Shown here piece by piece: positions 9,023 through 19,965 of a stretch of DNA of 49,180 nt. This DNA comes from an uncultured cyanobacterium (GTDB lineage: Bacteria > Cyanobacteriota > Cyanobacteriia > PCC-6307 > Cyanobiaceae): the NCBI GenBank assembly GCA_903823115.1, contig CAIJRN010000031.1:1-49180 (forward strand), written 5' to 3'. The position numbers and the translations under genes were made by a program. The notes beneath the pieces were generated by a model. It had not been told where the DNA came from. It made no database searches and saw only the letters and a program-made list of their open reading frames with translations. The stretch's first letter is position 1; each line of letters begins with the position of its first letter.

Positions 9023-10015
9023 ATGACCTTCGCGAAGAAGGCCCTGATCCTCGCCACCACCGCCAGCTTCGGCGGCGGCCTGGCCATCACCGCTGCAGCT
9101 CTGGCCGCCGGCACCATCAACGGTGCAGGGGCCACCTTCCCAGCCCCCTTCTATCAGGCCTCGTTTGCCGGCCTTGCCAGCAAGGGCATCAAGGTCAACT
9201 ACCAGTCGGTGGGTTCGGGCGCCGGGGTTCGGCAGTTCGTCGCCGGCACCGTTGATTTCGGCGCCACTGACGAGCCGATCAAGCCCGCCGAGGCGGCCAA
9301 GGTGAAGCGGGGCGTGGTTCAGTTCCCTGCCACCGGCGGCACGATCGCCGTCGCCTTCAACAATCCCAGCTGCCCGGCCCTCAAGCTCACCCAGATGCAG
9401 GTGGTCGGCATCTTCCTTGGCCAGATCAACACCTGGGAAGAGCTCAAGTGCGGCAGTGGCCCCATCAAGGTGGTGCACCGTTCGGATGGTTCCGGCACCA
9501 CCTTTGCCTTCACCAATTCCCTTTCGGCCTTCTCTTCCGAGTGGAAGAGCAAGGTGGGCGAGGGCAAGAGCGTCAAGTGGCCCGTGGGCGTTGGCGGCAA
9601 GGGCAATGAGGGTGTGGCCGGCACGATCAGCAACACCCCCGGCGCGATCGGCTATCTCAGTGATGCCTTCGTGAAAGGCAAGATCAAGTCAGCCGCCGTT
9701 CAGAACAAGGCCGGTCGCTTCATCAAGCCCAATGCCAAAAGCGGTGCCGCTGCGCTGAACAACATCCAGCTCAACAGCATGCTGGCCGGTGAAGATCCCA
9801 ATCCCGCTGGCGAGGCCAGCTACCCCATCTCCACCCTCTCCTGGATCCTGGCCTATAAAACCGGCAACGGTGAAAAGGCTGAAGTGATTCAGCAGGCGAT
9901 GGAGCATCTGCTCGCCAACACCACCCAGTTCCGCGGTGAAGTTCTGGGTTTCATCCCCCTCAAGGGCTCGATCCTCAGCCAGTCCCGCAACGCCATCAAC
10001 AGCATCGGCAAGTAA
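9023..10015 (+). CDS. pstS: Phosphate ABC transporter substrate-binding protein PstS
   Basis: 330 residues. A signal peptide (about 1-29, ending ALAAG) leads to the periplasm. The mature protein starts with INGAGATFPAPFYQ, the PstS family hallmark. Phosphate-contact segments are visible: VGSGAGVRQF, FGATDEP and HRSDGSGTTFAF. It captures phosphate for the PstCAB importer, whose genes are not in the window. Isolated pstS copies are common in picocyanobacteria. The candidate Pho box array upstream and phoBR 4.5 kb downstream point to induction by phosphate starvation. A strong terminator follows. Confidence 0.95.
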   Translation: MTFAKKALILATTASFGGGLAITAAALAAGTINGAGATFPAPFYQASFAGLASKGIKVNYQSVGSGAGVRQFVAGTVDFGATDEPIKPAEAAKVKRGVVQFPATGGTIAVAFNNPSCPALKLTQMQVVGIFLGQINTWEELKCGSGPIKVVHRSDGSGTTFAFTNSLSAFSSEWKSKVGEGKSVKWPVGVGGKGNEGVAGTISNTPGAIGYLSDAFVKGKIKSAAVQNKAGRFIKPNAKSGAAALNNIQLNSMLAGEDPNPAGEASYPISTLSWILAYKTGNGEKAEVIQQAMEHLLANTTQFRGEVLGFIPLKGSILSQSRNAINSIGK

Positions 10016-13785: not shown

Positions 13786-14418
13786 ATGGTGTACACGCCG
13801 TCCCGTGGCGCTGCCGGCAACGGTGCTTTCCGCGAATTCCTGGAAGCCAGCTACCGCAAGCGCACCCTGGTGCATCTGGCGGCTGGCAGCCAGGTACCGA
13901 TGCTGCGCAACAGCATCTGGTTGGTGGTGCGCGGCATGGTCAAGCTCGGCGCGATCACCATCCACGGCGACGATCTGCTGTTGGGTCTGGCTGGGCCCAG
14001 TGAGCCCTTCGGCGAGCCGCTCACCGATGTGGAGGCCTTCGAGTCCCGCACCCTCTGTGACACCGACCTGCTGTGTCTCACCCTGGAGGAAATCTGCTCC
14101 GAACCCAGCCTCTCGGTGGCGATGTTGCAGGCGGTGACCAAGCGCTATCGCCAGTCCCAGTCGCTGTTGGCCCTGATGGGCCTGCGCCGGGTGGAGGAAC
14201 GGGTGCGCGGTTTTCTGGAGCTCCTGGCCACCGAATACGGCCAGGCCTGCGAGCAGGGGTTGCGGCTGGACCTGCGACTCACGCACCAGGAAGTGGCCAG
14301 TGCCCTGGGCACCACCCGGGTCACGGTCACCCGTGTGATCGGGCTGCTGCGCCAGGAAGGCTGGCTGACGCTCGATGGTCAGCGCCGGCTGGTGATCAGC
14401 CATCTGCCGCCGCGGTGA
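13786..14418 (+). CDS. ptrA: CRP/FNR-family transcription regulator, PtrA-like
   Basis: 210 residues. The N-terminal half is a cNMP-binding-type beta roll (about 20-110) without an obvious cAMP-binding RxS cassette. After a dimer helix comes a winged helix-turn-helix, LTHQEVASALGTTRVTVTRV (about 165-184). In marine Synechococcus, PtrA is a CRP-family regulator next to phoBR that acts downstream of PhoB in the phosphate response. This gene has the same size, family and position, 44 bases upstream of phoB. The Pho box in front agrees with control by PhoB. The symbol rests on family and context; the effector is unknown. Confidence 0.75.
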   Translation: MVYTPSRGAAGNGAFREFLEASYRKRTLVHLAAGSQVPMLRNSIWLVVRGMVKLGAITIHGDDLLLGLAGPSEPFGEPLTDVEAFESRTLCDTDLLCLTLEEICSEPSLSVAMLQAVTKRYRQSQSLLALMGLRRVEERVRGFLELLATEYGQACEQGLRLDLRLTHQEVASALGTTRVTVTRVIGLLRQEGWLTLDGQRRLVISHLPPR

Positions 14419-14462
14419 TCCCTCTCTTCTGGACGGACCATCTCCCGGTCAACAATGGGGGG

Positions 14463-15158
14463 ATGCAACCCTCCCTGCTGGTCGTCGAAGATGACGACAC
14501 GATCCGCGAGACGATCCGCGACGCTCTGTCCTTGGAAGGCTTTGCGGTCACGGCCTTCGGCAATGGCCGCGATGCCCTGGAAACTCTTCAACGGGCTCCC
14601 GCCGAGGGCGGCTTCGCCCTGGTGGTGCTGGACCTGATGCTGCCCGGCCTGGGGGGGCTCGATCTCTGTCGCCAGTTGCGCAACTCTGGTGATCGCACGC
14701 CGATCCTGGTGGTCAGTGCCCGCGACAGCGAGACCGACCGGGTGCTGGGCCTTGAGGTGGGTGCCGATGATTACCTGATCAAGCCTTTCGGCATGCGCGA
14801 GTTGGTGGCCCGTTGCCGGGCCTTGCTGCGTCGCAGCCAGCCGGCTGCTGAGGCGGGACCGACGGTGCTTGAACATGCCAACCTGCGCCTCTTCCCGGAT
14901 GAATGTCGTGTTACCCGCGATGGGTTGGAGGTGAATCTTTCTCCCAAGGAGTACAGGTTGCTGGAGCTGTTCATGCAGCATCCCCGTCGGGTGTGGAGCC
15001 GCGACAAATTGCTGGAGCAGGTCTGGGGCATGGATTACTTCGGCGATAGCAAGACCGTCGATGTCCATATCCGCTGGTTGCGCGAAAAACTGGAAGCCAG
15101 CCCATCGGCCCCCATTCACCTGATCACGGTGCGGGGCTTCGGCTACCGCTTCGGTTGA
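14463..15158 (+). CDS. phoB: Phosphate response regulator PhoB/SphR
   Basis: 231 residues, OmpR/PhoB class. The receiver domain shows acidic VVEDDD near the N-terminus, phospho-acceptor Asp in VLDLMLPG and the KPFG lysine. The C-terminal winged helix includes LSPKEYRLLELFMQHP and VDVHIRWLREKLE. ATG 14463 is preferred over the far longer open frame because the receiver starts there. With the kinase encoded immediately downstream it forms the two-component system that senses phosphate limitation. Likely targets here are pstS and the ptrA-like gene. No Pho box was seen directly upstream of phoB itself. Confidence 0.92.
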   Translation: MQPSLLVVEDDDTIRETIRDALSLEGFAVTAFGNGRDALETLQRAPAEGGFALVVLDLMLPGLGGLDLCRQLRNSGDRTPILVVSARDSETDRVLGLEVGADDYLIKPFGMRELVARCRALLRRSQPAAEAGPTVLEHANLRLFPDECRVTRDGLEVNLSPKEYRLLELFMQHPRRVWSRDKLLEQVWGMDYFGDSKTVDVHIRWLREKLEASPSAPIHLITVRGFGYRFG

Positions 15159-16301
15159 GTGGGTTTCCTGCTGGCGGCGCTGCTGGGGCTGGGTATCGGT
15201 CTGTTGTTGCCCCGCCCGCGCGGCCCGGGTGATCGTCCCTTCAGCCGGCTGGAGCGCACCCAACTGATCCGCTGGCTCAACGCCAGTCCCAGCGGCTGGC
15301 TGATCGTCGATCCTGCCGATCAGGTGTTTCTGATCAACCACCGGGCCGAGCGGTTGCTCGATGTGCTCGGGGCGGCGTTGCTGCACACCCCGCCGTTGCA
15401 GCGGGTCTGCCCGGCACCGGAACTGACCCAGTTGATTGGCGATGCCCGCCTGCGCCAACGCACCCAGCGCCTGGAATGGCAGCGCTCCGGCCAGGAGCTG
15501 GTGCTGTTTGCCCTGCCCGGCGAAGGGGGCTGGGTGGCGCTGGTGCTGCAGAGCCGTCGCTCACTGGAAGCCCAGCTGGAGCAACAGGAGCGCTGGGTGA
15601 GTGATGTGGCCCATGAGCTCAAGACCCCCCTGACCGCTCTGCTGCTGGTGGGCGACAGCCTGGCCGCCCAGGTCAACAGCGGCAATGCGGTGCTGGTGGA
15701 GCGCCTGCAGAAGGAGTTGCTGCGGCTGCAGGAGCTGGTCGGCGACCTGCTGCAGCTGTCCCGCCTGGAGAACACCCTGCCCCGCGATGGCCTGCGGCGC
15801 TCCGACATCGACCTGCCCCAGCTGGTGGAGCAGGTGTGGGCCGGGCTGAGGCCCCTGGCGGAGGAGCGCCGGATCCGGCTCGATCTGCAGGTGATCGCCA
15901 ATGGCCAGTCCCATACGCCCCCCCCCGACGCCAGTGACGACGGCCTGTGGATTCAGGGGGATGGGTCGCTGCTGCATCGGGCACTGCTCAACCTGATCGA
16001 TAACGCCTTGCGTTACAGCCCCGACGAAGGCTGCATCGGAGTGCGGGTTCAACGGACGGACCAGTGGTGTCTGCTGACGGTGCGGGATCAGGGGCCGGGC
16101 CTGAGCGAAGAGGACCAGGAGCGCCTGTTCGAGCGCTTCTACCGGGGTGATCCCTCCCGGGTGCGCAGTCCTCGCGGCGGCAGTGGCCTCGGGCTGGCGA
16201 TCGTTCAGCAGATCGCCCTCACCCACGGCGGACGTGTCCAGGCCGGAAACCATCCTGCCGGTGGCGCCTTGCTGGAGCTGTTGCTGCCGGTGGGAGGCTA
16301 A
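15159..16301 (+). CDS. phoR: Phosphate sensor histidine kinase PhoR/SphS
   Basis: 380 residues, from a GTG that directly abuts the phoB TGA, so the two are translationally coupled. One N-terminal membrane segment (GFLLAALLGLGIGLLLP) is followed by a PAS-like domain (about 35-130). Kinase motifs follow: H box VAHELKTPL, N box LLNLIDNALRYS, G1 DQGPGL and G2 GSGLGLAI. The lack of a large periplasmic domain is usual for PhoR/SphS, which is thought to sense phosphate through the Pst complex. It phosphorylates PhoB. Confidence 0.92.
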   Translation: MGFLLAALLGLGIGLLLPRPRGPGDRPFSRLERTQLIRWLNASPSGWLIVDPADQVFLINHRAERLLDVLGAALLHTPPLQRVCPAPELTQLIGDARLRQRTQRLEWQRSGQELVLFALPGEGGWVALVLQSRRSLEAQLEQQERWVSDVAHELKTPLTALLLVGDSLAAQVNSGNAVLVERLQKELLRLQELVGDLLQLSRLENTLPRDGLRRSDIDLPQLVEQVWAGLRPLAEERRIRLDLQVIANGQSHTPPPDASDDGLWIQGDGSLLHRALLNLIDNALRYSPDEGCIGVRVQRTDQWCLLTVRDQGPGLSEEDQERLFERFYRGDPSRVRSPRGGSGLGLAIVQQIALTHGGRVQAGNHPAGGALLELLLPVGG

Positions 16302-17733: not shown

Positions 17734-18624
17734 CTAGATCTTCGTGGCGGCAGGCCTGGCACTGCTGCGCAGGGGGGCGCGCCAGATCCACAGGGTCTGG
17801 CCCTCGGGCCAGAGGAGCAGCAGTCGCTCATCCACGACCAGCGCCATCGGCTCGTCGGCGTTCAGGCCATCCACACCGGCCTCGGCCAGGAGCAGGCGCC
17901 GGAGTTCAATGCCCTCGCTGGCCGGGGCCTGGCCCAACACGGAGGCAGGAATCACGGTGGCGCCTTTCCAGAGGCGTCGCCAGCCGGCAGCCCGATCCCC
18001 GTCAGGGTGTTGCAGCTCAGGCTCAGACGGCTGTTCTGAATCACCGGGTTTCAGGGGCTCAGTGACTGCGCTGCGTCCCTGCAGGCGGCGGAGCAAGGAC
18101 AGGGCGGAATCGGCGCTGCTCGGACTCAGGCCACGGCTGCTCTCCCGGCCCCTTTCCCCGGGACTGAAAGGACGCTGGCTGAGGAGAGAGGCCTTGGCGC
18201 CCGGGCTTCTGCTGGCCGGCCGGGTGCGGGACGGCGGGGTGGACCTCTGGGCCCTGAGCGGTTCGGGAGGCTTCAAGCCGGCGGGGGCCGGCGGCAGGCT
18301 CAGCGCCGGCAGGTTGCCAGGTCCGGGCAAGGCTGCGCTTTGCAGTGTTTCCTCCAGGGGTTGGCGGCGACTGAACAGCAGCAGTTCGGGGCTGTCATCC
18401 GCCAGCTGGGGCTGGGCCGGCTCGGGTTGCCGCTGGGCACGCAATTGGCGGTAAGAGAGCGCCAGCAGATGCAGCGCCATCGCGGCCAGCAGAGCGATCA
18501 GCAGGGGTGAGGGTTGGCGCAGCCCCCGCAGCTGCCGTGACCCCAACGGCGCTGGCAGGCCAAGGACTCTGGGCCGTTTCAGTTCCCCAGGCCATTTCGT
18601 GCTCAGGCGCTGCAAGGCTTTCAT
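17734..18624 (-). CDS. TonB-like protein closing an ExbB-ExbD-ExbD operon
   Basis: 296 residues. A basic N-terminus is followed by one membrane helix at about 39-57 that contains His52 (AMALHLLAL), as in TonB. Then comes a long Pro/Ser/Arg-rich stretch (about 60-195) and a globular C-terminus (about 200-285) that does not resemble the canonical TonB C-terminal fold. Its ATG overlaps the stop of the preceding exbD-like gene (ATGA). Topology and context make it the energy-transmitting partner of the complex, but its outer-membrane target, if any, is unknown. No TonB-dependent receptor is in the window. Confidence 0.6.
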   Translation of the reverse strand: MKALQRLSTKWPGELKRPRVLGLPAPLGSRQLRGLRQPSPLLIALLAAMALHLLALSYRQLRAQRQPEPAQPQLADDSPELLLFSRRQPLEETLQSAALPGPGNLPALSLPPAPAGLKPPEPLRAQRSTPPSRTRPASRSPGAKASLLSQRPFSPGERGRESSRGLSPSSADSALSLLRRLQGRSAVTEPLKPGDSEQPSEPELQHPDGDRAAGWRRLWKGATVIPASVLGQAPASEGIELRRLLLAEAGVDGLNADEPMALVVDERLLLLWPEGQTLWIWRAPLRSSARPAATKI

Positions 18625-19007
18625 GGCAGTTGCAGCTCCACGGGCAGCGGACTGGTGTTCAACCGTGCCACCAGGTGCTGCACCGTCCCCCAGGGCACCT
18701 GGGGATCGCTCACCACGCGCAGCCGCAGATCGCTGCGCCCGGTGGCGAGACGCTGCAGCAGGGCGTTCAGCTCCTGGGGCGCAACGGCATGGTTCCAGAG
18801 CCGCAGCTGTCCGCGGCTATCCAGGCGCAGCAGGATCACCCCGGAGCTGGCGGGGCGCTGGGCGATGCGTTGGGGGATCAGCGTCAGGGCCAGGGCCGCG
18901 AGGGCCAGGGCGGCGGCCATCAGACCCAGAGCGAGCCCCTCGCTGGCCGGCAGCCCCAAGGGCGCACGGGGGCCGCTGGCCTGGAAGGGGGGGAAGCCGT
19001 CGATCAT
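18621..19007 (-). CDS. exbD: ExbD/TolR-like protein, second copy
   Basis: 128 residues. One membrane helix is at about 24-44, followed by a periplasmic ExbD-type domain: VILLRLDSRGQLRLWNHAV, then LRLRVVSDPQVPWGTVQHLV, the family's conserved D-x-x-V-P-x-G-x-V pattern. The membrane helix (LALGLMAAALALAALALTLI) has no Asp, whereas ExbD and TolR use one there for proton transfer. It overlaps both neighbours by ATGA (19007-19004 and 18624-18621). Confidence 0.75.
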   Translation of the reverse strand: MIDGFPPFQASGPRAPLGLPASEGLALGLMAAALALAALALTLIPQRIAQRPASSGVILLRLDSRGQLRLWNHAVAPQELNALLQRLATGRSDLRLRVVSDPQVPWGTVQHLVARLNTSPLPVELQLP

Positions 19008-19360
19008 GGCCTTGATCGCGGCGGTTGTTCCAGCAGCACCGGCCCGGATCCCAGTGAGCGCAACCAGTGCAACGAGCTGGAGATCTCCCCGATCGGCAGG
19101 GCCGCCGAAGGCAGATAGTGCACCGCCGCCCTGCTGCCCTCGTGGCGCAGCAGGGCGGCGAGTCGCCCGCTTTCGATCGCCTGGCCGCCCAGATACCAGT
19201 GCTGGCCAGGGGCCTGAACCAGCCATAGCGAGGCCGCCCCCTGGACGCTGCTCAGGGGCCGCGGCCGCGGCAGCCGCTCGCGGGCGATCTCCGGCAGCGC
19301 GGCCACGGCCCCGCAGATCAGCAGGGTGAGTCCCACCAGACATTGCAGCGCCAGGCTCAT
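19004..19360 (-). CDS. exbD: ExbD/TolR-like protein, first copy
   Basis: 118 residues. One N-terminal membrane helix (LALQCLVGLTLLICGAVAAL) is followed by a short periplasmic domain with ExbD-like layout (LWLVQAPGQHWYLGGQAI, then PIGEISSSLHWL). As in the second copy, the membrane helix has no Asp. ATG 19360 overlaps the exbB stop by ATGA. The two ExbD-like proteins are quite different from each other, suggesting a fixed heteromeric role rather than a recent duplication. Confidence 0.65.
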   Translation of the reverse strand: MSLALQCLVGLTLLICGAVAALPEIARERLPRPRPLSSVQGAASLWLVQAPGQHWYLGGQAIESGRLAALLRHEGSRAAVHYLPSAALPIGEISSSLHWLRSLGSGPVLLEQPPRSRP

Positions 19361-19965
19361 GGATGGGCCAACTCCCTTTGCCGGGCCAGCTGCCGGTGCA
19401 GCTGGCCGATCTGCCAGTGACGCAGTCCCTGGTTGAGCGCCAGGCCGGTGCTGGCCACCAGGCTGATGATCAGGCCCAGGGCCGTGCTCATCAACACCTG
19501 GCCGTAGCCCTGCAGGCTGGCTCCGGCGGGCAGGACGAGCTGGGAGCCCAGGCTGGAGAGCACCTGCATCAGGCCGATCACCGTGCCGATCAGTCCCAGC
19601 AGGGGGGCGATCAGGAGGGCGGCCTGCAGCAGCGGCTCCCCGAAGCCGATGGCCAGATCCCAGTCCTCGAGCTGATGGCGGGCCTCGCTGGCGCCAGCCT
19701 CCAGCAGACGCCTCCACAGTTGCCGGCGGGACTGGCGCTGGCGCCACCATTGCAGCCACCAGCGGCAGCGGTCGAAACACACCGTCAGCACAGCGATCGA
19801 CACCAACAGCAGCAAGATGCCGATCGGGCCGCTCACCCCGGGGATCAGTTCATGGGAGGCGCTGTTCAAGGGTGATCGCGCCTGAGCGAACTGGCATGGA
19901 TGGTATGGGTTCGGAGGCCTGCGGACCTGTGTCGCCATCGCTTGACAGCCTGGAGTTCCTGGCAT
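19357..19965 (-). CDS. exbB: ExbB/TolQ/MotA-family membrane protein
   Basis: About 200 residues. Three membrane segments: GPIGILLLLVSIAVLTVCF near the N-terminus, then ALLIAPLLGLIGTVIGLMQV, then YGQVLMSTALGLIISLVAST. This is the ExbB/TolQ layout with a cytoplasmic loop between helices 1 and 2. At the place of the essential third-helix glutamate (AEALxATAIGL in ExbB) this protein has Gln (GQVLMSTALGL); the Thr is kept. First gene of the four-gene leftward operon, divergent from cysK with 64 bases between. The start is uncertain: ATG 19965, ATG 19938 or a later TTG near the first helix. Confidence 0.8.
   Translation of the reverse strand: MPGTPGCQAMATQVRRPPNPYHPCQFAQARSPLNSASHELIPGVSGPIGILLLLVSIAVLTVCFDRCRWWLQWWRQRQSRRQLWRRLLEAGASEARHQLEDWDLAIGFGEPLLQAALLIAPLLGLIGTVIGLMQVLSSLGSQLVLPAGASLQGYGQVLMSTALGLIISLVASTGLALNQGLRHWQIGQLHRQLARQRELAHP

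Follow-up and report, generated by a model that had tools for sequence, protein, structure and literature searches.

Here we describe a clade of cyanobacterial ExbB-ExbD-ExbD-TonB-like operons in which both ExbD proteins have lost the Asp of their membrane helix and the Glu site of ExbB has become variable, so that the encoded complex is probably an unpowered strut or scaffold and not a proton-driven motor. The first member was read from a stretch of 49,180 nucleotides from an uncultured member of the Cyanobiaceae (contig CAIJRN010000031.1 of assembly GCA_903823115.1), referred to below as the window. Four open reading frames (ORFs) lie there in series on the minus strand between positions 17734 and 19965: B (ExbB-like, 19357..19965), D1 (ExbD-like, with a shortened front and an acid-free helix, 19004..19360), D2 (a second ExbD-like protein, also with an acid-free helix, 18621..19007) and T (TonB-like, with one His-bearing helix, a proline-rich linker and a small C-terminal domain, 17734..18624). 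The four-gene set with ATGA overlaps described in the original prediction was confirmed at all three junctions, where neighbouring ORFs share these four bases (B/D1 at 19357..19360, D1/D2 at 19004..19007, D2/T at 18621..18624). The start of B is uncertain, as the coordinates given are those of the longest ORF; conservation begins at about residue 40, and the true start may lie near 19850.

B belongs to the MotA/TolQ/ExbB family (Pfam MotA_ExbB, PF01618; 46.7 bits against a cut-off of 22.9, E = 3.3e-12). Seven relatives with the same four genes were found among public contigs, and a HMMER profile built from these and B matched the ExbB chains in the PDB (1.4e-6). When this profile was aligned to solved ExbB, the Gln column of B (codon 19498..19500, minus strand) faced the Glu of TM3 and the Thr next to it was kept, both as first proposed. 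The remaining proteins are more diverged. D2 scored 16.6 bits against Pfam ExbD (E = 0.0086), under the cut-off of 25.4, as did the D2 of a related acid-bearing operon, the sister operon described below. D1 and T had no match in Pfam, and every NCBIfam match of the operon proteins fell under its cut-off. The matches of D2 to PDB sequences were mostly designed helical proteins matching its helix and were taken as chance. Structures were predicted for D1 alone and for T alone. With the D1 model (mean pLDDT 75), the six best Foldseek matches in the PDB were all periplasmic domains of ExbD or TolR; the best had an E-value of 2.1e-3 at a probability of 1.00, and none passed E 0.001. On the predicted structure, the ExbD/TolR periplasmic fold is present in D1. 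The model of T (mean pLDDT 55) gave no significant Foldseek match and is too poor to judge the fold. A TonB C-terminal domain was not found in T by Pfam, NCBIfam or PDB sequence searches, in line with the unfamiliar domain noted at the outset. Together with the residue counts that follow, these results support the original reading of a diverged, acid-free complex of the ExbB/ExbD/ExbD/TonB type.

Residues were counted in the window, 40 further regions of its family and the seven public contigs, giving 48 loci, or 47 after removal of one (L062) that is cut by a contig end. In a joint alignment with the sister operon, the Asp column of D1 holds Gly in 25, Ala in 16, Val in 4 and Ser in 2 of the 47 acid-free loci, and that of D2 holds Ala in 23, Gly in 13 and Ser in 10 of 46; Asp stands at this column in 5/5 D1 and 5/5 D2 of the sister operon. 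Within four columns on either side there is no Asp or Glu in any acid-free locus (0/47 D1, 0/46 D2). A hydropathy scan likewise returned an acid-free helix for 47/47 D1 and 46/46 D2, and a helix with one acid for each of the five D1 and five D2 of the sister operon. The claim that neither ExbD-like helix of the window has an Asp therefore stood, and neither holds any acidic residue. Only 7 to 12 residues precede the Asp column in 39 of the 47 acid-free D1, compared with 18 to 23 in the sister operon, and the D1 residue that faces the Asp differs between two alignment methods, every candidate being non-acidic.

The Glu of ExbB TM3, which we take to be E176 by ExbB numbering, is replaced less uniformly. 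Among the 47 B proteins this site is Gln in 24 (the window included), Asp in 13, Glu in 3, Arg in 3, and Leu, Met, Ala or Thr in one each. Canonical homologues, which the original prediction had raised as a way in which it could fail, were thus encountered in part: Glu is present in three B proteins (L005, L006 and L061), none of which is accompanied by an ExbD with Asp, and the full set of acids occurs only in the sister operon. Five additional acid-free genomes, inspected by eye, have Gln in four and Met in one at the B site and no acid in the D1 and D2 helices. A local sequence error was ruled out, since the losses recur throughout the clade. With the exception of the variable ExbB Glu site, the membrane helices of B, D1 and D2 have no ionisable residue that is shared across the clade, which disfavours the original suggestion that the complex uses other residues. 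As judged from these alignments, the acid-free clade has lost its proton carriers.

Both the gene order and the substitutions recur in relatives. Of 251 genomes searched in the window's family, 66 had matches. The acid-free operon is found in 46 of these and a broken acid-free copy in one (G106); five have the acid-bearing operon of four genes, and the remaining 14 have a different strong PF01618 match (E up to 1e-27), which was inspected at the sequence level in 11. The 46 acid-free genomes are the window and the 40 regions of the main counts plus the five added later, and with G106 they span 10 genera. The coupled ORFs are intact in nearly all loci inspected. Two copies of B are broken: that of G106 (L082) aligns with gaps to L050 and has disrupted frames, and that of G186 (L078) is split over two frames. 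As 3 of 17 same-genus genomes also had no match, the operon is, on this evidence from the genomes, dispensable in places. The four-gene order was not seen at 20 loci of other cyanobacteria, which were checked for ExbD genes only, within flanks of about 1.5 kb. One of the loci, L005, comes from a record titled as a Bifidobacterium breve metagenome-assembled genome; the cysK beside its operon has 96% protein identity to that of the window, which marks the contig as cyanobacterial and the bin as misnamed or mixed.

The sister operon occurs at five loci (L079, L080, L081, L083 and L084) in other genera of the family. It resembles the acid-free operon in its gene order and in one-to-one matches of D1, D2 and T, and none of its five genomes contains a receptor. 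It differs in holding all three acids, with Glu kept in ExbB and Asp in each ExbD in 5/5 loci, whereas the acid-free clade is without both ExbD Asp. D1 matched the sister D1 at 2.1e-11 and the sister D2 at 0.017, D2 matched the sister D2 at 8.6e-16 and the sister D1 at 0.0012, and the C-terminal part of T matched the sister T at 4.3e-7. The five sister genomes hold no other PF01618 match. To place the loss, a maximum-likelihood tree was computed for 65 B proteins with the Glu column omitted and 13 canonical ExbB as the root. The 47 acid-free B rows, the window's B among them, form one clade (support 99/96), and the five acid-bearing sister rows adjoin it (87/84); because the tree has long branches, the acid-free clade itself is more secure than its relation to these sister rows. 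Acid-free B thus forms a single clade among acid-bearing relatives, and this topology shows the acid-bearing state to be ancestral and the loss derived. The simplest account is that both Asp were lost no later than the base of the clade.

A half-acid state exists beside the acid-free one in a separate lineage. Tandem ExbD pairs with the helix Asp in one protein and Asn in the other were seen in 8/8 family loci (L090-L094, L096-L098) and in 7 of the 20 loci of other cyanobacteria (L150-L154, L156, L158).

Other residues of the family have been kept. At the Thr position of TM2, 44 of the 47 B proteins have Thr and three have Ser; at that of TM3, 46 have Thr and one has Met; the window has Thr at both. 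These two positions correspond to ExbB Thr148 and Thr181. A Ser in TM1 is found in 47/47, and TM3 is followed by an Asn in 45/47 and, four residues further, by an Arg in 40/47. From their spacing, these may be the equivalents of ExbB Ser34, Asn196 and Arg200. The accessible sections of PMC12215075 assign ExbB Thr148/Thr181, Ser34 and Asn196/Arg200 to the pore, to contact with TonB and to bonding with ExbD Met15/Glu14, respectively. The kink proline of TM3 that is named in the same sections is absent, by eye, from the window and from the sister operon, and the proline of TM2 is kept. The T helix of the window has the His that had been pointed out originally, with Ala instead of the Ser of the SHLS motif four residues before it. 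Across 46 T proteins this column holds His in 23, Asn in 12 and Gln in 8; the three other entries are, by eye, two slightly misaligned Asn (L054, L056) and one Gln (L068). In E. coli TonB, Asn has been reported to be functional in place of the membrane-helix His. The T helix is followed by a conserved DDTPELL-FSR segment (the pattern is inexact) at the place of the D-box, which in the accessible part of PMC10907165 lies after the TonB helix, and this segment is a candidate counterpart of the D-box.

Selection on the four genes was estimated as dN/dS by a simple Nei-Gojobori count with no correction for codon bias, in which the fronts of some B and T may be mis-set. The 17 acid-free pairs yielded 67 computable values out of 68, the exception being T of L070, which had been taken in the wrong frame; all 67 were below 1, with a range of 0.03-0.72. 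These values speak against free decay of the coding sequences. The lone sister pair gave 0.06-0.16, and selection seems by this count to be weaker in the acid-free clade than in the sister pair.

The genome of the window (3.42 Mb, 99.8% complete) encodes a single PF01618 protein, which is B; two matches of a class-wide search that suggested a second ExbB in this genome (G000) both fall within B itself. It gave no match to PF02472 at 1e-3, and no TonB-dependent receptor (PF00593) was found in it. Hence neither the second canonical ExbB nor the receptors for which the original prediction proposed to look are present there. Among the 251 family genomes, 18 have a receptor match at E up to 1e-3, and in 16 the match is over the cut-off. 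The carriers are all 14 genomes with another strong PF01618 match, one of the 46 acid-free genomes, none of the five sister genomes and three others (two of them weak). In the lone acid-free carrier (G030), which has the acid-free operon at L049, a canonical ExbB (L085) followed by ExbD and transporter-like genes lies on the contig of the receptor. By this distribution both four-gene operons are unassociated with receptors, and the change of partner seems to predate the loss of the acids. Four acid-free genomes (G226, G037, G077 and G103) have a second PF01618 protein, which in the two inspected is of another, longer type. A longer PF01618 type of about 275-460 residues, belonging to a different system, was seen in other family genomes (L159-L167), where the small membrane proteins encoded after it appear by eye to keep their Asp.

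The neighbourhood of the operon includes, by Pfam, a phosphate-binding-type protein (window positions 9023-10015), a CRP-type regulator (13786-14418), a response regulator (14073-15158) and a histidine kinase (15159-16301), which we take to be pstS, ptrA, phoB and phoR. Among 40 stretches of at most about 20 kb, drawn from 13 genera, the CRP-type regulator and the histidine kinase are close to the operon in five genera and the phosphate-binding-type protein in four. Membership of a phosphate regulon was considered and rejected, because the genera that share these neighbours are all confined to a single section of the B tree, comprising 33 rows, so that inherited gene order accounts for the sharing. 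A crude search for Pho-box-like repeats detected no pair upstream of B at any of the loci; as it also detected none ahead of the pstS-like gene, its power is low.

With moderate confidence, we interpret the operon as encoding a complex of the ExbB-ExbD-ExbD-TonB type that has lost its carriers, is no longer proton-driven and serves as an unpowered anchor, or a force sensor, for T. We infer the absence of proton drive from the residues; the non-proton-driven and structural options of the original prediction are the best readings remaining. By sequence, the ExbB Glu site has become variable, both ExbD Asp are absent clade-wide, and the genes remain linked under purifying selection. In this interpretation, B would still form a pentamer, with a mixed pair of D1 and D2 filling its pore. 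T would dock beside B through its His/Asn/Gln helix and be held by the periplasmic domains of D1 and D2, and it would span the periplasm to bind a putative outer partner, the complex acting as an inner-membrane anchor or sensor of force.

The complex could instead still be driven by ions, through an acid at the ExbB site, an acid ahead of the D2 helix, or a ring of threonines with water or another ion. The pore threonines are indeed kept, Asp or Glu is found at the ExbB site in 16 of 47 B proteins (Asp 13, Glu 3), and 21 of 46 D2 have Asp or Glu at one column directly before the helix, with Glu one column earlier in four more. However, neither acid is general: the D2 column elsewhere holds Gln, Trp, Arg, Ala and others, and the ExbB site is Gln in the window and Arg in three rows. 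Some sister D2 also have acids shortly before their Asp, and the acid of D2 may therefore be an ancient structural residue comparable to ExbD Glu14, which bonds to ExbB Arg/Asn in the accessible sections of PMC12215075. We therefore regard a persisting ion drive as unlikely, if still the most credible of the alternatives.

We give less weight to a decaying operon, in which the acids were the first to go and the rest is a remnant. The broken copies in G106 and G186, the same-genus genomes without the operon and dN/dS values reaching 0.72 would fit decay, but the operon persists in 47 of the 251 family genomes and 10 genera (counting the broken G106 copy), its coupled ORFs are nearly always intact, all 67 dN/dS values are below 1 and the loss dates back to the origin of the clade. 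It is highly improbable that this is an ordinary Ton system, energised in trans by a canonical ExbBD and serving TonB-dependent receptors. G030 does combine the acid-free operon with a canonical ExbB on a receptor contig, and four further genomes hold a second PF01618 protein; yet the window's genome, with one PF01618 protein and no receptor, largely refutes this explanation there, and receptors accompany 1/46 acid-free and 0/5 sister operons against 14/14 of the other strong PF01618 genomes.

The operon is close to several known systems, from each of which it also differs. It shares with the Ton motor, including versions with tandem ExbD genes, the family of B, the periplasmic fold of D1, the pore threonines, and the His/Asn/Gln helix and proline-rich linker of T. 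Unlike that motor, it has no Asp in either ExbD, a variable ExbB Glu site, no detectable TonB C-terminal domain in T and, in the window's genome, no receptor. The TolQ-TolR-TolA proteins of Tol-Pal belong to the same superfamily, and TolQ and TolR turned up in the sequence and fold searches; however, TolR keeps its Asp23 according to the accessible sections of PMC12215075, and T has no TolA family match. TolQ-like pentamers with vWA partners provide a further case of non-standard partners of a TolQ/ExbB-type pentamer, but the partner helices hold a proton-binding Asp in the accessible part of PMC12204202, and those of the acid-free clade do not. In the open-licence library searched, we found no on-point paper on Asp-free ExbB/ExbD families or on such operons in picocyanobacteria.

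ExbBD, TolQR and MotAB have been studied as machines defined by a proton-binding Asp. A clade that keeps the parts while both ExbD carriers are gone separates the scaffold role from the proton role, and the acid-free and acid-bearing sister operons form a natural before-and-after pair. G030, in which the acid-free operon coexists with a canonical ExbB, is a natural site for comparison. In cyanobacteria of this kind, where the genes occur without receptors, counts of ExbB- and TonB-like genes overstate active Ton transport. We put at about even the chance that the clade is a natural ExbBD-TonB family without any proton drive, serving as an unpowered pentamer-and-dimer scaffold to which a trans-periplasmic protein is anchored, or as a sensor that is moved by force coming from the outer envelope. 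If so, it would be the motor equivalent of a pseudokinase, fixed in its lineage and shaped by selection after its energy source was lost.
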